A stretch of 20,446 nt of DNA from a virus, in the IMG/VR virus record IMGVR_UViG_3300046777_001434, positions 1 through 20,446 of that record; one strand, written 5' to 3'. The first letter of the stretch is position 1, and each line of letters starts with the position of its first letter. Of the stretch, positions 9,043 through 20,046 are shown in pieces. The position numbers were made by a program, and so were the translations under genes. The notes beneath the pieces are model-generated. The model saw only the letters and a list, made by a program, of their open reading frames with translations, did not search any database and had not been told where the DNA came from.

Positions 9043-9924
9043 TTATAAAATCATTAAGTAATTTCCACTACGGAATAGAGTCCCAGAAGGAAGACTTCCC
9101 GTTTGGTTTTGGTTTGGAAGATTTGGCATTAGCACATATCCAGATATGCCGCTCAAAACTACCGACTTTCTATTGGAATGACCCAATATTAAAGTATAAT
9201 CATCAAAAAGTTCTAGCATTGGTAAACCAGCAGAGTCAGCTACAGCCCACAAAGAGCTGTTTGCCCCTGTCTCGTAATAACTTACGAAGGTTCCTGCATT
9301 TCCTACTACTGAAGCATAACCAGAGCTCGCAATTATTGATATAGAGCTGGGAGTATTAATGCCGCTAAGATTTATTCTTTGGGCTGATACTGGTGAATTG
9401 AAAATTTTAGTTCCAGTAAAATTAAAATTTGCTCCACTGACGATATTATCAATAGTAGTAGCATTTGAAGCAGCAATAATTTGAGAATTTAAAACTCCAG
9501 ATACAGTGTCTGTATATGTTTTTGCATATCCGCTAGAAGTATCAATTTTAGTATTTAAGACTCCACTAGCTCCAGTAACGCTGGCGTTTAGATTACCGCT
9601 AACAGAAATAATATAACCGCTAAGAGCAGTATCCACTGCCGTTAACGAAGCTCCAGAAGATTGTAGTCTAGTAGAAAGAGCGCCACTAACATTATCAGTA
9701 TATAAATTAGAATTTATTCCTGTACTCTGAATAGAGTTTGCCAAAATTCCTGAAACATTATCTATTTTTGTGTTTAGAGTTCCTGTCGCTGCGTCAAGAG
9801 CGTCTGAGTCTAAAAATCCAGAAGGGTTATCCACTAGTGGATAATAATTTACGTCTCCAACTTCTATAAAGAAGCCAGAAAACTCAGCTTGATCCACCTG
9901 TTTCCTCCTGACTAAATTGGCCAT
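9043..9924 (-). CDS. Fibre-like structural protein, paralog of the protein at 1965-2753
   Basis: A 293-residue protein. The N-terminal 40 residues (MANLVRRKQVDQAEFSG, then NYYPLVDNPSGFL) match the fibre protein at 1965-2753. About residues 45-165 carry recurrent VSG, LSG or SSG units typical of fibre shafts. FTGTKIFNSPVSAQRINL corresponds to SGTKVFTNRIGFKQIDL of the paralog, and the C-terminal 100 or so residues are different. It is wedged between the large terminase and portal genes with gaps of 17 and 2 bases, so it is co-expressed with head genes. It may be a head or neck fibre, or a second receptor-binding protein; the sequence does not decide. Confidence 0.75.
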   Translation of the reverse strand: MANLVRRKQVDQAEFSGFFIEVGDVNYYPLVDNPSGFLDSDALDAATGTLNTKIDNVSGILANSIQSTGINSNLYTDNVSGALSTRLQSSGASLTAVDTALSGYIISVSGNLNASVTGASGVLNTKIDTSSGYAKTYTDTVSGVLNSQIIAASNATTIDNIVSGANFNFTGTKIFNSPVSAQRINLSGINTPSSISIIASSGYASVVGNAGTFVSYYETGANSSLWAVADSAGLPMLELFDDYTLILGHSNRKSVVLSGISGYVLMPNLPNQNQTGSLPSGTLFRSGNYLMIL

Positions 9925-9941
9925 ACTATTTAGGAATTACA

Positions 9942-11780
9942 CTAAAACATCACAGGAGTAAAAGTAAATGTATTATTTTCTACCTCCTGCTTCATAATGT
10001 CATTATAACATTTAACTCCCCAGTTAGCCAACATAAATGCAGAATAATTATCTTTTCTTGCTCTTGTGGCTGAAGACCCTCTCTTCAAATGCTGCGGCAG
10101 ATCAAAGTTTTGCATGCCTCTAGAAGTCGTAGTATATTCTACCAGAGAGCATTGCTTTTTTGTTTGATAAATGAAGTCGTCTTGGTTTTCTATGAAGTCT
10201 AGATTAGTCCAATCTTGTCTATCGGCATTAAATATAAGATCTCTTGGAATTGAAGTGTCTATCACTTGGCTAAAGAACTTTTCATTAGAGCAAGTTCTAG
10301 AAGCAAACAAAACTTTCTTATAATCTATGCAAGCTTGCAAAAATTCATTGCCCTTTCTAATGAATCCAGAGGAGAATACTTGATTAAATGCTATCCTATG
10401 TTCTGATAGGTTATATTGAGATTTCGCGCTTCTTAATTGGGCGTCGTACTCTGCGCCTTCAGCATCTGCTGCGAACTCAAGAGTCTTAATGTTTATTTTA
10501 TTTGCTTTAAAAACATCAGATTGATTGCAGGTATCTAAAAATATGTCTGCGCCAGCATTATCGCTCACTATCATTACGACATTGAAGTATGTCATTAGAT
10601 ATCCAAAATATTTAACGTGATTATTTAAATTACCAAGTCCAGCATAAGTATGAACAAGTATTCCTATGCCAGTATCTTCGTCTAGTTCCATTACAGCCAT
10701 TGCAAAATAGTCCGCATTTGGGCTATCGCTCATGTTTGGATCAATGCCAATAATATACTTCTTGCCAGTGGATCCTTTTATCAACGTATGAGGATACTCG
10801 TCTTTCAAAGTACACTCTTCCATTTTCTTTGCACTAAAATAACTGTCAGATCCGTCAGTAAATTGAGCGCAATACTCTCTTAAAAATGCAGAATGAGAAG
10901 TTCCGCCACTCTGAGCTTCTTCAATGATTGTTTTATCAATCATCTCTGCTGGCAAAGCTTCGAATCCAAGCTGAGAAACGAAATAAGAAGACTCTCCTTT
11001 TTCCGGAGAAGTTATTTGGTTTACCCACTCTTGATATGTCTTATAAAGATTCTCAAAAGTATAACTGGCAGAAGACAAGGCTATCATTTTTGAATTATTG
11101 ACGAAGACCATCCTGTCTTCTTCTTTCATCTTACCTTCTTTAATTAGCAAGTCTTCCATTTCGCGCACATCAATACGTCTTTTCATGTCTTGAGGCGCAA
11201 CAAGGAATGGCATCAATACGTTTTTAATAATTTCTTCTGGTAGCAGCAAAAACTCATCAAGCACAAGAATGTTAGCACGGAAACCACGAATCTTTTCGCC
11301 GCTTAGAGGAATTGCCCTGATAGATCCGCCATTAATATCCCACTCATACAAATCATTTCTCTTGCTCTTGGCTCCGAATGCTTGCAGCAATAGCTCTGCG
11401 CCTTTGCTTTCGGACATCTTTTCTATGTTATTAAATATTGCTCTAGCAGTACGGAACGTAGGGCCTGCTATTAAGATTTTTGTATTTGGCTCAAATATGC
11501 ATTGCAGCACACAATAGACACTAGCTATAAATGACTTGGCGCAACCGCGACCCCAAACACACATATTAAAATTTCTATTAAACATTCCCTTGAGAGTAAT
11601 CTCTTGGTAAGGAGCAAGCTTAACTCCTGTTAATAAATAAGTAGTAAAGTATAAATTTTGACGTAAAAATTTTGCTAATGAAATCTTAGCTTCTTTATCT
11701 TCCAACTCTCCTTGAAGCTGCTTATAAATCTCATTATAGTTTTCTGTTTTCTTTTTGTACTTCGTTGTTTCGTGCCACAT
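9942..11780 (-). CDS. terL: Terminase large subunit
   Basis: A 612-residue DNA-packaging motor. The ATPase half shows a Walker A variant GRGCAKSF (residues 77-84), IAGPTFRTAR (104-113), Walker B ILVLDE (171-176) and a coupling motif ALSSAS (234-239). The RNase H-like nuclease half shows IIGIDPN with Asp347 and MIVSDNAGAD with Asp407 as candidate metal ligands. The enzyme cuts concatemeric DNA and pumps it through the portal into the prohead. Length is normal for large terminases. The ATG directly follows the stop of the upstream nuclease gene, so translation is probably coupled. The Walker A has Ala where the second Gly is usual; such variants occur and the enzyme looks intact. Confidence 0.95.
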   Translation of the reverse strand: MWHETTKYKKKTENYNEIYKQLQGELEDKEAKISLAKFLRQNLYFTTYLLTGVKLAPYQEITLKGMFNRNFNMCVWGRGCAKSFIASVYCVLQCIFEPNTKILIAGPTFRTARAIFNNIEKMSESKGAELLLQAFGAKSKRNDLYEWDINGGSIRAIPLSGEKIRGFRANILVLDEFLLLPEEIIKNVLMPFLVAPQDMKRRIDVREMEDLLIKEGKMKEEDRMVFVNNSKMIALSSASYTFENLYKTYQEWVNQITSPEKGESSYFVSQLGFEALPAEMIDKTIIEEAQSGGTSHSAFLREYCAQFTDGSDSYFSAKKMEECTLKDEYPHTLIKGSTGKKYIIGIDPNMSDSPNADYFAMAVMELDEDTGIGILVHTYAGLGNLNNHVKYFGYLMTYFNVVMIVSDNAGADIFLDTCNQSDVFKANKINIKTLEFAADAEGAEYDAQLRSAKSQYNLSEHRIAFNQVFSSGFIRKGNEFLQACIDYKKVLFASRTCSNEKFFSQVIDTSIPRDLIFNADRQDWTNLDFIENQDDFIYQTKKQCSLVEYTTTSRGMQNFDLPQHLKRGSSATRARKDNYSAFMLANWGVKCYNDIMKQEVENNTFTFTPVMF

Positions 11781-11781
11781 A

Positions 11782-12702
11782 TTATAGTAGTTTTAAGTCG
11801 TACATTAATTGCAAGTCGTATTTTTTATATTCTCCTTTACTAAAAAATACTTTCTTCATTATTCTAACGCATTCTTCCCTTCCATCTACAAATAAAAATT
11901 GTACGTTGGGATATTTCTGTATTAATTCTCTGACGTTAAAGAAAACAAACTCTGGAGTGACTTTGATTTTCTTAGATACATAATTGAGATATTGAAAGCT
12001 CAAGCATTCTTGCAAAGAACGCTCTACCAAGACTATCAGATTCGCTTCTGCTGCCACAGAACGCTCTATCTCTCGGCAAAATCTCTCGTAGCCGCCACTC
12101 ATTGTGCCGATAAAATCAGAAATAGATTTTCTTTCGATATAGCATTTGTTTTCGGGATCGTTGATAGCGTAGTCTCCGAATTTTAAACCTTTAATTTCAG
12201 TAGGATAGTCTATGACCAGAGGCATCTGCTCTCTGGTATCAATAAATATTTTAAATCCATCAACCTCAGAAGATTTCAATCCTTCTTTTGGATATTCGTA
12301 TTTATTTTTGAGGCCAATCTCGCCGCAAAGCCTATAATAATCCAAGAAAAGCTTGTGATAATAAGGAACAGGGGGGCTAGTAATAGAGCGAAGCTCAACT
12401 TCAGTAGGCGCATAAGTTAAGTTATGTTTTTCTTTTCTTTGGACTAGAAATTTTTTTAAATAAGTTTTCTGAGCGTCAGAATTTTGCTGGCTCAGCCACT
12501 TTTTCATGGAATTTTTATTGTTGAAGTCATTAGAGAAATAATAATCTTTATTTTTGAAGTTTATTAATTCTCCAGTAAGCAAATCATATCTCGGCTCGTG
12601 AGTTTGGTAGTATTCTACCATTCTCAACTTGTGAGATTTGAGATGCCCATGAAAATTCTTGTCTGTTTCGAATTCTAAATTACAAATTTTACATTTAACC
12701 AT
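11782..12702 (-). CDS. C2H2 zinc finger-ERCC4 (XPF-like) nuclease
   Basis: A 306-residue protein. Residues 4-24 form a perfect classical zinc finger, C-x2-C-x12-H-x3-H (C4, C7, H20, H24). Residues about 150-235 are an ERCC4/XPF-family nuclease core: FIDTREQ (D155, R157, E158), GDYAI (G176, D177), IERKSISD (E190, R191, K192, D196), i.e. the GD...ERKxxxD signature complete. The family cuts branched or flap DNA using divalent metal. The middle, 40-145, is unassigned. The gene overlaps the upstream gene by 8 bases and directly precedes terL, so a role in processing replicating DNA before or during packaging is inferred; a recombination or repair role is the alternative. Confidence 0.88.
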   Translation of the reverse strand: MVKCKICNLEFETDKNFHGHLKSHKLRMVEYYQTHEPRYDLLTGELINFKNKDYYFSNDFNNKNSMKKWLSQQNSDAQKTYLKKFLVQRKEKHNLTYAPTEVELRSITSPPVPYYHKLFLDYYRLCGEIGLKNKYEYPKEGLKSSEVDGFKIFIDTREQMPLVIDYPTEIKGLKFGDYAINDPENKCYIERKSISDFIGTMSGGYERFCREIERSVAAEANLIVLVERSLQECLSFQYLNYVSKKIKVTPEFVFFNVRELIQKYPNVQFLFVDGREECVRIMKKVFFSKGEYKKYDLQLMYDLKLL

Positions 12703-13789
12703 CTAAAACTTCCTCCTCTGTTAAGCCAAAGATTCTAGCTTTAACATCATCCATAGATGATAAGCGTCCGACCTCTGCTTTTAAAACTTCTCTTCTCATA
12801 TCTGCCATTTTTATCATTTCTTTTCTAGTCTCTTCGTCTTTCCACATCTGCACTAGATTAAGAATCGAGGCGTTATCTTTAACTTGATTAGAAAGCCTTT
12901 CGCTTCTCTTAACTTTTAGATCGTTAAGGAGTTTTTGCTGACGAGTAACGCACTGATTGTACTCTGTTCGAGCAGAAGTGACTGCTTCTACTAGAGTCAT
13001 TGGAATTTTTGCGCCTGAATTAATTTCTTGATCTATCTGATCTTGCAAAGTAGCTATTGTCTCTTGAATATTTGAAGATATTACAACTTCCGTTGCTAAA
13101 ACAATATATTGATCTACTTCTTCTTGAGTTAAATCTGATTTATCAAAAGTATATCTAATGAAACTGCTCTCGAAAAGATCTCTGTCTACGGAATTAGTAT
13201 ATGTTTCTATCTGATGCAAAAATCTATAAGTATGAAGATAAGAGATTAGAGAGTTCAGCTCTTTTTTTTGCTTAGTTGTGATTTTATCTTTATCTATTCC
13301 ATTTAAAACATATCTATTGACTCTAACTAAAGCTCTTTCTTGATTCTTGGGTGGTTTATAGTCTTCTTGATTCTCTTCTTCAGTGGGAAGACCTGCTGAA
13401 GTTTGAACTTGTTTGGGTAAGGTATCTAAATACTCTTGGATAGAGCGAGCTTCTATGGATAAATTTGTTAAACCATAATTATCGAAAAGATCTCTGGCCA
13501 ATTCTGTTGCGGTCATCATTGCCGCATTATTAACAATATAATCTTTTTGCTCGTCAGATAAAGCCACTCTATCTTTTGGAGTGTATTCGCTTTTTGTTTT
13601 TACTTTTAAATCTCTTGAGGCTAAAAATTTCTTTACGGATTTCCCATAGACGCTTCTTCCATCTATATTTGGAATTTCTGGAAAAACTATTTGAGTTAAC
13701 TCTTGTAAGCTAGGCGGATTTTCTTTTCTGTCGTTCCAAGTGCGAATAATAGTGTCTTTTTGTTCTTGAGTTAATTCTATTTCAGTCAT
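12695..13789 (-). CDS. Duplicated-HTH protein, probable terminase small subunit or packaging cofactor
   Basis: A 364-residue protein with two similar N-terminal modules. The first, about residues 5-60, begins LTQEQKDTIIRTW; the second, about 76-125, begins LSDEQKDYIVNNA. Both continue with a helix-turn-helix-like (S/T)xxEL pattern and end with Arg-Ser and a final helix ending in (F/Y)L. The remainder is largely helical with coiled-coil character (about 235-345). Small terminase subunits carry N-terminal HTH DNA-binding domains and a helical oligomerisation core and usually lie just upstream of terL. Here one nuclease gene intervenes. The assignment rests on position and architecture, not a family match. 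The ATG overlaps the sigma-factor stop as ATGA. Confidence 0.6.
   Translation of the reverse strand: MTEIELTQEQKDTIIRTWNDRKENPPSLQELTQIVFPEIPNIDGRSVYGKSVKKFLASRDLKVKTKSEYTPKDRVALSDEQKDYIVNNAAMMTATELARDLFDNYGLTNLSIEARSIQEYLDTLPKQVQTSAGLPTEEENQEDYKPPKNQERALVRVNRYVLNGIDKDKITTKQKKELNSLISYLHTYRFLHQIETYTNSVDRDLFESSFIRYTFDKSDLTQEEVDQYIVLATEVVISSNIQETIATLQDQIDQEINSGAKIPMTLVEAVTSARTEYNQCVTRQQKLLNDLKVKRSERLSNQVKDNASILNLVQMWKDEETRKEMIKMADMRREVLKAEVGRLSSMDDVKARIFGLTEEEVLDG
12709..12718 (-). promoter_or_regulatory. Strong ribosome-binding site of the ERCC4 nuclease gene
   Basis: On the minus strand AGGAGGAAG (12709-12717) lies inside the 3' end of the upstream gene, with GGAGG nine bases from the ATG at 12700-12702. 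It fixes this start and shows that the host uses ordinary Shine-Dalgarno initiation. It is the strongest such site I saw in the window. Confidence 0.8.
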
Positions 13790-14466
13790 AGGTCTATTTC
13801 TCCATTAGCCAAAGATTGCTTAGCTTTTTTTATTATTGATTTTTGGATATTTTTGAGCTGCTTATTGTAAGCGCTCTTAGCTTCCTTGTCGTATTTAAAC
13901 TTTAAAATCTTACAAACTTGCTCTTCTGTTTTGTGATTAATATATAATAACTCATACACTCTCCACTCTACTGGCTTTAAAATCTGCTTCATCTTTTCGT
14001 GCAAATTTTGAGTCGCTTTCTGAATATCTGAGTTAATACAAACCTGATTATTTATTTCGTAAGAGTGATCTTCTATGGACACAGCCATTTTTAAGTCGTA
14101 AGCATTTTTTTTGGTCTTCATCCAATTATTAAACATTGGACAACCCTGATCTTGCTTTCCGTATATGCGACATTCGCTTTCTCCCAAAGCTGCGGCGCAT
14201 TTTAAGCAAGGACGAGCATAATTTCCGTAATTATTCCTGATTAAGTTCTTGATTTGATTGGAGATGATTCTATTAATCCAAGGAAGCATGGGTTTTTTCT
14301 CATCATAAAGGTTCCATTTTTTGTATATATGGAATCTTATGATTTGAGACACATCTTCGAAATCAATCCAGCTAAGCGTCGATAAAGTCCACTTATTCTT
14401 ACGCTTTAATATCTCTGTATTAATTAAATTGATGCAAGCTTCAAATTTTATTTTATTCTTCTTCAT
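13786..14466 (-). CDS. Phage sigma-70-family RNA polymerase sigma factor with a Cys-rich insert
   Basis: A 226-residue protein. Residues 26-80 read as sigma region 2: WTLSTLSWIDFEDVSQIIRF, then YDEKKPMLPWINRIISNQ, matching the DxxDxxQ and WLxxIxxN-type patterns of ECF-like factors. Residues 155-190 fit region 4 (ILKPVEWRVYELLYINHKTE). Between them C87, C90, C99 and C109 form a likely zinc site. Phage sigma factors of this sort redirect host RNA polymerase to late genes. Its position at the head of the packaging and head operon suits a late-gene regulator. It overlaps the upstream zinc-ribbon gene by 14 bases and the downstream gene by 4. Confidence 0.8.
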   Translation of the reverse strand: MKKNKIKFEACINLINTEILKRKNKWTLSTLSWIDFEDVSQIIRFHIYKKWNLYDEKKPMLPWINRIISNQIKNLIRNNYGNYARPCLKCAAALGESECRIYGKQDQGCPMFNNWMKTKKNAYDLKMAVSIEDHSYEINNQVCINSDIQKATQNLHEKMKQILKPVEWRVYELLYINHKTEEQVCKILKFKYDKEAKSAYNKQLKNIQKSIIKKAKQSLANGEIDL

Positions 14467-15929: not shown

Positions 15930-16628
15930 TTAGAAGGTCCAGCGCAAACCGCCAGCACCAACTACCTCGCCATCCAACTCCTTGCGAGCAAAGTTAAATG
16001 TAGAGACATCAAAGTCATTCTTGATGTAAGTAACCTCTGCAAATGCAGTGAGGTGATCAAAGAATGTGCGGCTTACTCCAAGCTTAGCAATAGCATTGGC
16101 AGAATCACTTAGCTTAATGTACTCTAGCGCAGGAGTCACAGTAAACCAGCCAAATACGCTGGTTGGACGTTCGAGGCCGACGCCATAGCCATATTGTTCT
16201 AGATTAATATCATATACGCCCTTTACATAAGGAGTAAATACAATATTAGATAGAGCAACCTTGATATTTGCTTCTGTTGAGTTTGGGATATTTGGGTCAC
16301 CAGCTTGGTGACGGATTACGCTGCCATCTGTGCGCAAAACCACGCCCTCAAAGAGTTGAAAACCCTTTCCTACATTGAAAGCCCAGTGGCTCTCATCGAG
16401 ATTCTCGCTAACTGGGAGAATCGTGCCAGACACTCCTACATCAACGCCATAGTATGTCGAGCCTAGACCAACTCCTGCGAAAGGAGTAGCCTTGGTGCGA
16501 GACAAACCGTTCACAAGGTACGTTGAGGTGTACCCAGCCTCAAAAGAGGCGCGAACTGGGGCATTTTGGGCAAAGGCCGCTGTAGTTAGTGTTGCAATTA
16601 ATAGTGCAATTTTGAATAGTTTATTCAT
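15930..16628 (-). CDS. Phage-encoded outer-membrane beta-barrel protein
   Basis: A 232-residue protein. Residues 1-20 are a clear Sec signal peptide (MNKLFKIALLIATLTTAAFA) with an Ala-x-Ala cleavage site. The mature part has alternating polar and hydrophobic strands with aromatic girdles (SFEAGYTSTYLVNGLS, YGYGVGLERP, LTAFAEVTYI) and ends GGLRWTF, a typical C-terminal Phe beta-signal read by the BAM complex. I infer insertion in the host outer membrane, with roughly 8-12 strands. Phage outer-membrane proteins can block superinfection or alter the infected cell surface; which applies here is unknown. It stands alone, with its own promoter candidate and terminator, so it may be timed separately from the head operon. 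Confidence 0.85.
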   Translation of the reverse strand: MNKLFKIALLIATLTTAAFAQNAPVRASFEAGYTSTYLVNGLSRTKATPFAGVGLGSTYYGVDVGVSGTILPVSENLDESHWAFNVGKGFQLFEGVVLRTDGSVIRHQAGDPNIPNSTEANIKVALSNIVFTPYVKGVYDINLEQYGYGVGLERPTSVFGWFTVTPALEYIKLSDSANAIAKLGVSRTFFDHLTAFAEVTYIKNDFDVSTFNFARKELDGEVVGAGGLRWTF

Positions 16629-16991: not shown

Positions 16992-17252
16992 TTAGGCCAA
17001 GGCCGGATGCGGACACGCTGCGCGGAAATCATCTTCATCGATGGCCGCCTCGTAGTCTTCCCAATCGGCAAACGCCTTGAATGATCCGGAGGCGACAACG
17101 CCAGCCAATGGGAACATGAGATTCGAGACGTTCCGGGTGCCCTTGTAAGTCAGGCCCGGCGCGTTGCTTTGCCGATTGGCCACTAGGAGAATCGTGCCGA
17201 TTGGGTGAACCGGATTGTTTCCGGTGACTTCGTGAAGGTGAGCGGTGATCAT
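16992..17252 (-). CDS. Small protein of unknown function, high-GC cassette
   Basis: An 86-residue protein starting MITAHLHEVTGNNPVHPIGT. No motif or family is recognised. The first half is mixed beta-like, with a basic patch around RQSNAPGLTYKG; the C-terminal third is acidic (FADWEDYEAAIDEDDF). It has no signal peptide or membrane segment. No Shine-Dalgarno is visible; the ATG is 10 bases downstream of a C(UUCG)G hairpin that belongs either to its leader or to the end of the upstream gene. A following terminator and codon choices rich in G/C at third positions support it as a real gene. A 76-codon frame overlapping it (16868-17098) was judged a shadow. Confidence 0.65.
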   Translation of the reverse strand: MITAHLHEVTGNNPVHPIGTILLVANRQSNAPGLTYKGTRNVSNLMFPLAGVVASGSFKAFADWEDYEAAIDEDDFRAACPHPALA

Positions 17253-17262
17253 GGAGTTAAGA

Positions 17263-17284
17263 GCGGGGCCCCGAAGGGCCCCGC
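17263..17284 (-). terminator. Perfect 9-bp hairpin with UUCG tetraloop between two cassette genes
   Basis: In minus-strand RNA, GCGGGGCCC and GGGCCCCGC pair perfectly around UUCG, one of the most stable RNA hairpins. It starts 11 bases after the stop of gene 17296-17505 and ends 10 bases before the ATG of gene 16992-17252. There is no U-run, so termination is uncertain. A message-end stabiliser, or a leader element limiting translation of the downstream gene, is equally possible. Confidence 0.7.
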
Positions 17285-17295
17285 AGTGTTATGGT

Positions 17296-17505
17296 TTAGA
17301 ATCCGACGTAGTAGAGAGTCTCCCGAGAAACGATGACTTCGGCCAATTCGGCCTTTTTCTCTTTCAAGGACTCTGCGGCCGCGGTGTCTGCGCTGTCCTT
17401 GTCGAGCCGGCTCTGGATGTCCCGGATCTCTTGCAAGAGATCCCGTTGTTGGCGACGAAGGGCGCTGCGGGCCATGTCGAGGGCTGCACTTACTGATGGT
17501 TTCAC
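17296..17505 (-). CDS. Small coiled-coil protein of unknown function
   Basis: A 69-residue protein beginning at a GTG codon (17503-17505). Residues 10-58 are a highly charged helix with coiled-coil spacing (LRRQQRDLLQEIRDIQSRLD, then AAESLKEKKAELAEVIV). There is no signal peptide, membrane segment or catalytic motif. It could be an oligomerising regulator or an anti-host factor; nothing in the sequence chooses. Its leader carries a 9-base tandem repeat and a 7-bp hairpin. The sequence before the start, AGAAAGTAACCTATC, resembles that before the gene at 17815-18102 (AGAAAGTCAATCT), hinting at a shared initiation signal. Confidence 0.65.
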   Translation of the reverse strand: MKPSVSAALDMARSALRRQQRDLLQEIRDIQSRLDKDSADTAAAESLKEKKAELAEVIVSRETLYYVGF

Positions 17506-17518
17506 GATAGGTTACTTT

Positions 17519-17537
17519 CTGCGATCCCCTGCGATCC
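17519..17537. repeat. 9-base direct repeat in the leader of gene 17296-17505
   Basis: CTGCGATCC occurs twice, at 17519-17527 and 17529-17537, one base apart (10-base period, about one DNA helical turn). It lies 14-32 bases upstream of the GTG start. It could be a paired operator half-site or part of a folded leader; the repeat itself is certain, the function is not. Confidence 0.6.
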
Positions 17538-17547
17538 GGGGCCGATA

Positions 17548-17567
17548 TCAGCGGAACGTCCCGCTGA
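17548..17567 (-). promoter_or_regulatory. Leader hairpin upstream of gene 17296-17505
   Basis: In minus-strand RNA, UCAGCGG and CCGCUGA form a 7-bp stem with a 6-base loop, 42 bases before the start codon. It has no U-run, so it is not a terminator. Leader hairpins occur upstream of other genes in this block. Confidence 0.55.
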
Positions 17568-17644
17568 CGACATAACTAAACCACATAGGGGCCTTTTTGA
17601 CAATACCTTTTTCCTTTTTCTTTTTGGGTATCAATACACCTTAG

Positions 17645-17697
17645 CTCTCACACACGCGCGCCCGCATACACACACACGCTCACACACACCACACCAC
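17645..17697. repeat. Alternating purine-pyrimidine tract (CA/CG repeats)
   Basis: About 50 bases dominated by CACACA and CGCGCG units. Alternating purine-pyrimidine DNA of this kind can adopt left-handed Z-form under negative supercoiling, and repeats like this are prone to slippage. It directly abuts an A/T-only tract. It is unusual in compact phage DNA. Confidence 0.75.
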
Positions 17698-17700
17698 TAT

Positions 17701-17762
17701 AGTACTATATATATTATTATTTATTATTTTATTATTATTCTTTGTTCTATTATTATTCTATT
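17701..17762. repeat. A/T-rich TTATTATT-type tract
   Basis: A nearly pure A/T run built from TTATT and TTATTATT units with one CTTTGTTC interruption. On the minus (coding) strand it reads AATAATAA and follows the structured leader side, just beyond the terminator of the gene 17815-18102. Similar tracts follow each terminator in this block. Confidence 0.75.
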
Positions 17763-17772
17763 AAAACAAAAA

Positions 17773-17796
17773 ACCCCCTGTATTGCTACAGAGGGT
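17773..17796 (-). terminator. Intrinsic terminator of gene 17815-18102 (GCAA tetraloop)
   Basis: In minus-strand RNA, ACCCUCUGUA and UACAGGGGGU form a 10-bp stem (one U-G pair) closed by the GNRA loop GCAA, then UUUUUGUUUU. It lies 18 bases past the stop codon. Confidence 0.93.
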
Positions 17797-17814
17797 CTTG
17801 TGACAAATGGGCTT

Positions 17815-18102
17815 TTAGATAAACAAATCAGCTTTCGCTTTCGCGTGTGCTTGTGCCGCTTGGGTTTTCAGGCTTAGGCTTCCGGACTCCGGAGTCACGA
17901 CAGCGTAGCGTTGGCCACGGCCCACGCCCAAGCCCACGCCCACCTTGCGATAGCATCGCATGCACATATTCGCCCACGGACCCATGCGGGTCTTACCGTC
18001 AACGAACTCCGACAAACGATCCTTGCCGCACAGGTTGCACTCGCCTTGCGTGTGCATGATCTTACCCGTCATGGTCCCGCCTTCGATTTGAACGTACTGC
18101 AT
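17815..18102 (-). CDS. Small zinc-binding (two CxxC) phage protein
   Basis: A 95-residue protein from the ATG at 18102. An internal ATG at 18070-18072, preceded by GAAGGCGGGACC, is a good alternative start that would give 85 residues. The two knuckles CNLCGK and CMRCYRK, about 23 residues apart, form a likely zinc ribbon. Between and after them are DGKTRMGPWANMCMRC and VGVGLGVGRGQRY, a pattern I recall from many small phage proteins of unknown function. The C-terminus is an Ala/Lys-rich helix. Probable roles are nucleic-acid or protein binding; no reaction can be named. It is a single-gene unit with its own leader hairpin and terminator. Confidence 0.78.
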   Translation of the reverse strand: MQYVQIEGGTMTGKIMHTQGECNLCGKDRLSEFVDGKTRMGPWANMCMRCYRKVGVGLGVGRGQRYAVVTPESGSLSLKTQAAQAHAKAKADLFI

Positions 18103-18119
18103 AGATTGACTTTCTAGCG

Positions 18120-18136
18120 TCGGGTTACTGGCCCGA
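18120..18136 (-). promoter_or_regulatory. Leader hairpin upstream of the zinc-binding gene
   Basis: In minus-strand RNA, UCGGG and CCCGA make a 5-bp stem around a 7-base loop, 17 bases before the ATG at 18102. It is short, so on its own it is weak evidence. It matters because comparable hairpins precede two other genes of the block. Confidence 0.4.
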
Positions 18137-18265
18137 ACTGCATTTAATTTACTACAGGATCTTAAATAAACAAGAGCTTTTATGTGTTTTCTTTTAGTGG
18201 GCTTTCCTAGTCTGTGAGCTTGGCAACCACATAGATAATAAATAATAGAACTACAAATATGAACA

Positions 18266-18310
18266 TATTATTATTATTGATATTAATATTATTATTCTTT
18301 ATTATTTAAA
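18266..18310. repeat. A/T-only TTATTATT-type tract
   Basis: A tract of ATTATTATT units with a single G and C, lying just beyond the terminator of gene 18358-18633. Further AATAATA sequence at 18234-18248 belongs to the same gene-free spacer. Confidence 0.7.
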
Positions 18311-18317
18311 ATAAAAT

Positions 18318-18341
18318 GCCCCTAGGAGTTAACCTAGGGGC
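18318..18341 (-). terminator. Intrinsic terminator of gene 18358-18633
   Basis: GCCCCTAGG (18318-18326) and CCTAGGGGC (18333-18341) form a perfect 9-bp stem with a 6-base loop. In minus-strand RNA it is followed by AUUUUAUUUU. It lies 17 bases past the stop codon. Confidence 0.9.
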
Positions 18342-18357
18342 TTTGGTTGTTTAGGTG

Positions 18358-18633
18358 TTACGGGCAATCGGTAGCGTGGAACGAGACCAGAACGCCGGGG
18401 CGGAGCTTGTGAAGCTCTTGGAGATCCTTAAAGAATCCCGCGATCTCGGAAGCCCGGATCATGGCTTCCAACCCGATACGGTGTCCGGGTTGTTCTTCGC
18501 CCCAGCAATAGTACTGGGAACGCTCCGCAAAGAGCATTCCCGCAACGGCGCGGTGTTCGATGTCGTTTGTGCGCGGGATTGAGATCCAGACTTTGAGGCC
18601 AGCGCGGTAAGGAGACAGAGTTAAGTGCTTCAT
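18358..18633 (-). CDS. Small protein of unknown function, single-gene cassette
   Basis: A 91-residue protein starting MKHLTLSPYRAGLKVWISIP. No family is recognised. The N-terminal part looks beta-rich and the middle has a Trp/Tyr/Cys cluster (SQYYCWGEEQPG). Residues 53-75 look helical (GLEAMIRASEIAGFFKDLQE), with a short strand near the end (PGVLVSFHA). There is no signal peptide or membrane segment. It has its own terminator and lies between two A/T tracts, so it is probably transcribed alone. Third positions rich in G/C match its neighbours and differ from the low-GC phage block. Confidence 0.68.
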   Translation of the reverse strand: MKHLTLSPYRAGLKVWISIPRTNDIEHRAVAGMLFAERSQYYCWGEEQPGHRIGLEAMIRASEIAGFFKDLQELHKLRPGVLVSFHATDCP

Positions 18634-18761
18634 GCGGTTTCCAGATTACCTGAGATTGCCCACTTCACAAGAGAATAAATAACAAAAGTAAAACGCCCAA
18701 CAGACACTCCAATACACTATGCACAACTAAATCAATAAGCAAAGAAAGCCTATTCATGATG

Positions 18762-18839
<78 letters not shown>

Positions 18840-18928
18840 AAGCAAACGAAAGATAAAATAAACGATTATTAACAAAAGAATTATTGATATTAGCATAAAG
18901 TGAAATCTTCCTACTAATAAAAGAAAAG

Positions 18929-18954
18929 AGCCGGGAGTTGTTACGCTCCCGGCT
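18929..18954 (-). terminator. Intrinsic terminator of the DUF932-like gene
   Basis: AGCCGGGAG (18929-18937) and CTCCCGGCT (18946-18954) form a perfect 9-bp stem with an 8-base loop. CUUUUCUUUUAUU follows closely in minus-strand RNA. It lies 7 bases past the stop codon. Confidence 0.93.
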
Positions 18955-18961
18955 TTGTTGT

Positions 18962-19819
18962 TTAGTTGTTTACTAGTTCCAGCGGCCTAGTGACTTGTTT
19001 AAGCCTGTCGTGATCTCGGCCTAGTTCCATCATCCAACCCGTGAACTCAGCGTTCACGGTGTCGGCATACTGGAACCGTTCCCGTTTCAAGACATGAGTG
19101 AAGAACTCAGTCCCGGCGTTCCAAAGGTTGTAAACGGTGCGTTCTTCATCCTCCTTCCGGCGCGGCGCATTCCAGAAGCTCAGGATACCGTCTCGGGTTG
19201 ACCCCGAGATGATTCCATCCTCCTGAGCATGGCTCAGGATATGGGAACCCTGAGCTTGTTCGATAGGCATGACGAGGAGATCCAAGTCACTCGCCCACTT
19301 CTCGAAACGGTTTAACATAATGTCCAAACCGCCAACGATACGGTCCACGTTGAGCCGGGAAGTGTGCTTCCCCTGAAGCATGATTCCCTTTTCTGACCGC
19401 ACCGCACCGTTGAGACAGGCGAGGCGTTCAATGGTGTCAACCAGACTGACCTTCCATGAGCCATCGTAAGAGTTCCGCGCCGTAACGCGAAACGCCATTT
19501 CGTCGCCCACTTTCCGCACCTTGATGGTGCGATTCTTGAAAGTCCACTGAGCCTGACACCGCGCTCCGTGATCCATCACGGCGACCTCACGTTCAAACCC
19601 GCTAAGGTTGGCTTTCTTAAAGCCTTCCTCGATTTGGTTAATGAAGTCACTATTCTGGAGCAACCCGTAACGCTCACCCGCAACCCCGAGAACTCGGGGG
19701 AATCCCTCATCCCGGCGCACCGTTCCGAAAAACCCGGAGTCGTGACCATCGATGGTCAACGGTTCCAGAGTGACCGGGAACGAGAAGTTGCTGGAATGAG
19801 GGACAGTTTGACGAGCCAT
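18962..19819 (-). CDS. DUF932-like phage or plasmid protein, copy 1
   Basis: A 285-residue protein that I recognise as DUF932-like. Features include LGVAGERYGLLQNSDFINQI (about 45-64), a central FRVTARNSYDGSWKVSLVDT with LACLNGA (about 110-140), and the C-terminal FWNAPRRKEDEERTVYNLWN. The family is common in phages and plasmids. Its biochemical role is not established; association with DNA replication or recombination functions has been suggested. Length is near the family norm, so it looks complete. A tandem paralog lies upstream at 20210-20446. It is a single-gene unit with a leader hairpin and strong terminator. Confidence 0.82.
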   Translation of the reverse strand: MARQTVPHSSNFSFPVTLEPLTIDGHDSGFFGTVRRDEGFPRVLGVAGERYGLLQNSDFINQIEEGFKKANLSGFEREVAVMDHGARCQAQWTFKNRTIKVRKVGDEMAFRVTARNSYDGSWKVSLVDTIERLACLNGAVRSEKGIMLQGKHTSRLNVDRIVGGLDIMLNRFEKWASDLDLLVMPIEQAQGSHILSHAQEDGIISGSTRDGILSFWNAPRRKEDEERTVYNLWNAGTEFFTHVLKRERFQYADTVNAEFTGWMMELGRDHDRLKQVTRPLELVNN

Positions 19820-19864
19820 AGTTGTATGCTCTTTTCAATCCGTTCACCGATAGGACAATCCCAA

Positions 19865-19891
19865 CCCGGCGCTCCACAAAGTGGAACCGGG
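19865..19891 (-). promoter_or_regulatory. Two-part leader hairpin upstream of the DUF932-like gene
   Basis: CCCGG (19865-19869) pairs with CCGGG (19887-19891), and TCCAC (19873-19877) pairs with GTGGA (19881-19885) around a 3-base loop, with an asymmetric internal loop. It lies 45 bases before the ATG with no U-run. The rest of the 390-base gap 19820-20209 holds mixed sequence without a gene and the A/T tract listed separately. Confidence 0.55.
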
Positions 19892-20046
19892 ATCAGCTAA
19901 CGGGATGTCAAAGAACGAGATCAAATTAGCATGGAATCCTGATTTGGGAAGGCTTTTCTTTAGGTAATTAAGGGAGTCATTTTAAGTAACTGGGAAAGCC
20001 GCGCTCCCCGTTCTCTGTCCCTGTTTCTGCCCTATACTGCCCCAGC

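Follow-up and report, generated by a model that had tools for sequence, protein, structure and literature searches.

What does a nuclease that begins with a zinc finger do for a virus that encodes it directly before its large terminase? The question was raised by IMG/VR record IMGVR_UViG_3300046777_001434, whose 20,446 bases (hereafter the window, i.e. the whole stretch of DNA analysed) have no near match among named phages. The original prediction, made from the letters alone, described a C2H2 zinc finger fused to an ERCC4 nuclease on the minus strand and suggested that the enzyme clears DNA branches during packaging. Applying profile searches, structure modelling and comparison of related loci, we examined the domains of this protein, the conservation of its surroundings and the role that both may indicate.

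Relatives of the nuclease in uncultured phages

Relatives were collected through scans of viral contigs that returned 71, 236, at least 344 and at least 389 of them, the best 80 at most being taken from each. After removal of three duplicates, 233 loci carried the nuclease gene; the 222 encoding at least 295 aa were analysed and the 11 shorter ones dropped. These full-length relatives formed 63 clusters at 88% identity, with minimum identities of 49% to the window protein and 43% between any two members. Outside viral contigs, two scans of bacterial and archaeal genome contigs using narrow patterns retrieved no relative of the nuclease, and plasmids contained a single partial match, to residues 144-214 and annotated ERCC4. 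Named phages contributed 46 matching records, all of them haloviruses, with matches starting at residue 117 or beyond in the best 40 of the 46. The fusion is not peculiar to the window, as all four zinc ligands and the nuclease occur together in 140 of the 222 relatives. Within the titles and abstract openings of the ERCC4/XPF phage papers listed and passages of PMC7326821 and PMC10535572, we found no description of a zinc finger-ERCC4 fusion or of the nuclease-terminase gene order.

An intact nuclease of the XPF/ERCC4 family

The coordinates and strand first given for the gene (11782..12702, minus strand) proved correct, and the ORF is intact, encoding 306 aa. By profile, catalytic motif and predicted fold, the protein is assigned to the XPF/ERCC4 family, an already known kind of nuclease. 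Its nuclease domain (residues about 146-291, 11830..12267, minus strand) matched Pfam ERCC4 over residues 166-284 (E 1.4e-7, 32 bits, over the curated cut-off of 24) and phrog_3490, an ERCC4-type nuclease, over residues 149-285 (E 1.5e-13 in PHROGs). ERCC4 was likewise matched in 14/14 diverse members, with Pfam (E up to 0.5, best 1.4e-12) and PHROGs (E up to 0.1, best 2.1e-17). The active site is complete and of the XPF/ERCC4 type, with D155, GD176-177, ERK190-192 and D196, and the D..RE, GD and ERK..D residues align with those of Hef (1j22) in a profile search. The GDX(12)ERKX(3)D segment (residues 176-196, 12115..12177, minus strand) was invariant at the residues checked, and all nine active-site residues were retained in 222/222 relatives, bearing out the complete GD...ERKxxxD core that had been read from the window.

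Between the finger and the nuclease lies a conserved, mostly helical middle domain (residues 27-145, 12268..12624, minus strand) without a recurring family match; a weak match to PF24608 (PDDEXK_15) at residues 49-93 recurred in only 2/14 members and was treated as chance. At the other end, the protein stops at residue 306, about 15 residues past the aligned nuclease part, and no Pfam HhH profile indicated the C-terminal (HhH)2 domain of XPF and Mus81, whether in the window protein (at E up to 1) or among the 14 members (at E up to 0.5). The Endonuclease_7 profile did not match the window protein (Pfam, E up to 1). Pfam detected no HNH domain in the window protein or the 14 members, one of which had a weak PHROG match named HNH endonuclease (E 0.022).

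Predicted structure and comparison with known nucleases

A structure model built from 63 sequences (pLDDT 95.0, pTM 0.90) replaced an earlier one from ten close relatives (pLDDT 48.7). In agreement with the ERCC4 assignment first made, the predicted model adopts the XPF nuclease fold according to both Foldseek and VIA. Against the PDB, Foldseek ranked the Hef nuclease domain 1j22 best (E 1.7e-5), followed by XPF and Mus81. The VIA matches, which cover residues 146-295 of the model, placed residues 149-290 of the window protein on archaeal XPF (Aeropyrum XPF with DNA, 2bgw: Z 13.5, rmsd 2.4, 125 residues) and gave Z 12.8 for Hef, the first entries outside the XPF/Mus81/ERCC1-like group appearing at about 5. 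Among viral models, the closest was a haloviral ERCC4 protein (E 2.7e-8).

The phage protein therefore shares with archaeal Hef/XPF, eukaryotic XPF and Mus81 (PF02732) the nuclease fold, predicted here, and the D..RE, GD, ERKxxxD active site. Unlike them, it has no helicase part and no C-terminal (HhH)2 match, carrying instead an N-terminal finger and a helical domain. With the haloviral ERCC4 nucleases (phrog_3490) it has the nuclease domain in common, at 29-35% identity in the best 40 of the 46 records, but the haloviral proteins are short (145 aa in HRTV-27) and devoid of a finger, and no terminase is annotated in the stretches examined. In HRTV-27 and HRTV-5, inspection by eye revealed no C2H2 finger in the ORFs upstream of the ERCC4 gene. 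In phi105, a relative of the haloviral ERCC4 protein is likewise not beside the terminase of its phage.

The N-terminal zinc finger

The finger (residues 4-24, 12631..12693, minus strand; ligands C4, C7, H20 and H24) has the pattern C-x2-C-x12-H-x3-H and so agrees with the classical C2H2 definition (C-x2-4-C-x12-H-x3-5-H, strand-strand-helix in the model), the model showing two short strands (residues 2-3 and 10-11) and a helix (14-24). Its zf-C2H2_jaz score lies under the Pfam gathering cut-off (18.6 vs 22.6 bits). Yet, even when its spacing was loosened, this pattern appeared in only 38 of 100,000 shuffles of the window protein and in none of 2,486 other ORFs of at least 100 aa from the related, partly redundant loci. 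This rarity, the retention of the ligands in 140/222 relatives and the modelled strand-strand-helix shape together argue that the finger is not a product of chance.

The ligand positions read CCHH in 140 of the 222 full-length relatives, C-D-A-Y in 49 and C-D-S-Y in 33. Three of the four ligands are thus missing in 82 relatives, which belong to one clade (L151, L155 and L159-L238) and retain both the nuclease gene in its usual place and the active-site residues. As gene and place are kept in a clade without these ligands, zinc binding is not required for retention of the gene. The claim of a complete classical zinc finger consequently holds for the window protein and 140/222 relatives, while its loss from the other 82 makes the finger less essential than had been claimed. 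The coexistence of zinc-bearing and zinc-less clades offers a natural experiment on the role of the finger.

Gene order beside the terminase

The nuclease gene stops one base (11781) before the start of the large terminase gene (TerL, 9942..11780, minus strand), identified by Pfam Terminase_6N (2.2e-5), phrog_2 (4.5e-23) and alignment. Upstream, the gene that we call up1 (12695..13789, minus strand, 364 aa) shares 8 bases with the nuclease gene, and the same gene run continues with a sigma-70 region 2 protein (13786..14466, minus strand, Pfam 6.9e-6); a PhoH gene lies near this run. A candidate small terminase by its position, up1 had no PDB match and no PHROG match recurring in more than 1/18 members, and nothing in these searches beyond position favours this assignment.

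The adjacency to the terminase originally described for the window extends widely across the relatives. TerL follows the nuclease within 100 bases in 212 of the 222 loci, and in a further 9 it lies within 1.5 kb, giving 221/222, the only locus without TerL in view (L128) being one whose stretch stops there. Spacings of -4 (81 loci), +1 (70) and -1 (37) account for 188 of the 221. On the other side, up1 is found within 100 bases in 200 loci and within 1.5 kb in 18, with none in view in 4. The order up1-nuclease-TerL persists down to 43-49% identity, even where other ORFs are inserted on either side.

Because the first loci had been found through the nuclease itself, sampling was repeated from TerL. 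Among 80 TerL-sampled loci, the nuclease was present in 61/61 of those with 1,000 or more upstream bases; the other 19, with shorter upstream stretches, contained a partial nuclease in 15 cases and none in 4, whose TerL started at base 2, 65, 86 or 413. This sample, the best 80 of 567, includes at least three loci on contigs already sampled (L146, L254 and L314) and, its TerL query having come from nuclease-bearing contigs, represents no more than a part of that TerL clade. Near-fixed adjacency to TerL and presence in 61/61 loci sampled from TerL argue that the nuclease gene is core to the packaging region and not a mobile insert. In a large group of uncultured phages from aquatic sources, the nuclease is fixed among the packaging genes.

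Selection and history of the zinc-less lineage

Pooled over 400 sampled pairs per group, dN/dS near the window was 0.030 for the nuclease part, 0.118 for the middle domain and 0.048 for the finger, against 0.048, 0.055 and 0.076, respectively, in the zinc-less clade. The nuclease part is under purifying selection (pooled dN/dS 0.03).

In a nuclease tree of 63 members computed without the finger, the 15 zinc-less members formed one side of a 100/100 branch, apart from the clade of the window. The TerL tree again united the same phages, but placed them with the clade of the window and L083/L137 (SH-aLRT 100). When both genes were analysed under a single model with 61 members, the zinc-less group had a stem of 0.49 for the nuclease vs 0.12 for TerL, compared with 0.30 vs 0.22 for the stem of the window's clade and 15.3 vs 11.9 for the whole trees; with differing models per gene, the zinc-less contrast had been 0.81 vs 0.12. 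The longer stem implies that the nuclease changed more than TerL in this lineage, or was exchanged, long-branch effects being possible in these trees.

Proposed role in packaging and alternative explanations

Building on the domains, active site, predicted fold, fixed gene order and purifying selection established here, we propose a structure-specific endonuclease of the XPF/ERCC4 kind that would remove branches from replicated or recombined phage DNA for packaging, as T4 endonuclease VII (EndoVII) does, a reading to which we give an even chance. Its gene immediately precedes that of the terminase in a compact run, and the nuclease would cut flaps, forks or Holliday junctions in this DNA and would thereby hand the terminase an unbranched duplex, as EndoVII achieves in T4. 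At the N-terminus, the finger and the helical domain would either replace the DNA-binding (HhH)2 of XPF and Mus81 or dock the nuclease on the packaging complex. Since there is no (HhH)2 match and the protein ends with its nuclease domain, it is not certain to recognise branched DNA. The packaging role, resting on gene order and position, is plausible; the enzymatic activity of the nuclease, its substrate, its timing and any contact with the terminase are what we infer.

The family of XPF, Mus81 and Hef acts on flaps, forks and junctions, which XPF/Mus81 enzymes cleave as dimers. In T4, according to PMC10893049, branched DNA stalls the packaging motor until EndoVII frees it, and EndoVII is associated with packaging proteins. 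This precedent and the substrates of the family lead us to favour branch removal for packaging over assistance to the terminase or incidental repair, both considered below. The T4 enzyme (gp49) resembles ours in its proposed role but belongs to a different family (Pfam Endonuclease_7), and an 11 kb stretch around gene 49 of T4 contains no terminase gene.

Twelve related records of 60-175 kb were searched for other resolvases. Each of the 12 had a single ERCC4 match, over the cut-off, while none matched Endonuclease_7 (detected in the T4 control), RuvC (profile matching 8/14 control genomes) or RusA (3/14); the T7 endonuclease I search matched nothing anywhere, controls included. As these records, of unestimated completeness, are perhaps fragments, EndoVII, RuvC and RusA may lie outside the stretches searched. 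A RecA-like gene was found in 4/12, which, like the unmatched EndoVII, RuvC and RusA profiles, adds to the plausibility of the packaging role, and the matches listed for a 174-kb record (76 of 106 ORFs scanned) include DNA polymerase III alpha-like, DnaB-like, rIIA/rIIB-like and sigma-factor-like genes. For branch clearing before packaging in phages without a recognised EndoVII, a TerL-adjacent nuclease in hundreds of contigs, its active site untouched, provides a concrete candidate.

The near-fixed place beside TerL would also suit a helper of the terminase in specific cleavage of phage DNA at cos or pac, the site being given by the finger or up1, and zinc fingers can indeed confer sequence specificity. 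HK97 gp74-type HNH proteins are likewise encoded by genes adjoining the terminase, although their nuclease family differs; HNH genes often adjoin terminases (PMC9658991) and gp74 promotes cos cleavage (PMC9410871). We nevertheless regard such a helper as unlikely, because TerL itself keeps D347, D407 and D534 in 10/10 aligned members, which, judging by TerL motifs, are probably its nuclease residues, because ERCC4 enzymes are, to our knowledge, structure-specific, and because the zinc ligands were lost in 82/222 relatives while the gene stayed put. Equally improbable in our view is a nuclease serving replication, recombination or repair in general, with an adjacency to TerL that reflects only shared late expression, although gene order can mirror shared timing rather than shared function. 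The ERCC4 gene is not beside an annotated terminase in HRTV-27, HRTV-5, HF2 and phi105, a sigma factor shares the gene run with PhoH nearby, and an ERCC4-type nuclease is described in PMC10535572 as a DNA repair nuclease; against this stand the survival of the up1-nuclease-TerL order to 43-49% identity, also despite inserted ORFs, and the three spacings shared by 188/221 loci.

Among phage nucleases, those bearing small zinc motifs frequently turn out to be homing enzymes, and a selfish homing-type or host-DNA-degrading nuclease would thus be conceivable. Its presence in 61/61 TerL-sampled contigs with at least 1 kb upstream led us to disfavour a homing nuclease; together with the single ERCC4 match in 12/12 long records and the scattered nearby inserts, which are other genes, this makes a selfish nuclease very improbable. 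Returning to branch removal for packaging, we tentatively consider a bolder form of it, possible though rather doubtful, in which the nuclease would belong to the packaging machine as a subunit dedicated to it, an XPF-type resolvase that fills the place of EndoVII across a large lineage of aquatic phages. Through its N-terminal domain it would dock to TerL, the portal or up1, and in one lineage a metal-free version would have replaced the zinc-held finger while the nuclease, but not TerL, went through a burst of change.

Additional genomic features

In some contigs (L084, L088, L094, L103, L109 and others), ORFs appearing by eye to be sulfotransferase-like and 2OG-oxygenase-like are inserted before or after the nuclease. 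Homing enzymes were considered for the inserts beside the nuclease and rejected, these ORFs looking sulfotransferase-like, 2OG-oxygenase-like or methyltransferase-like by eye.

Among 220 matched TerL sequences, the Walker A motif (window 11531-11555) reads GRGCAKS in 54, GRGCSKS in 14 and GRGCSKC in one, in place of GRGCGKS/T. Beside PhoH, the ORF at 15930-16628 has a signal-peptide-like start and 35 matches in related loci, with no Pfam match. The region 17000-20000, which encodes a DUF932 protein, reaches up to 53% GC in two of its three kilobases; since L009, L014 and L028 share parts of it, an assembly error is improbable. Finally, the ORFs at 1965-2753 and 9043-9924 have similar starts (MANL..R.KQ.DQ.E.SG) and look like paralogous fibre-type proteins.
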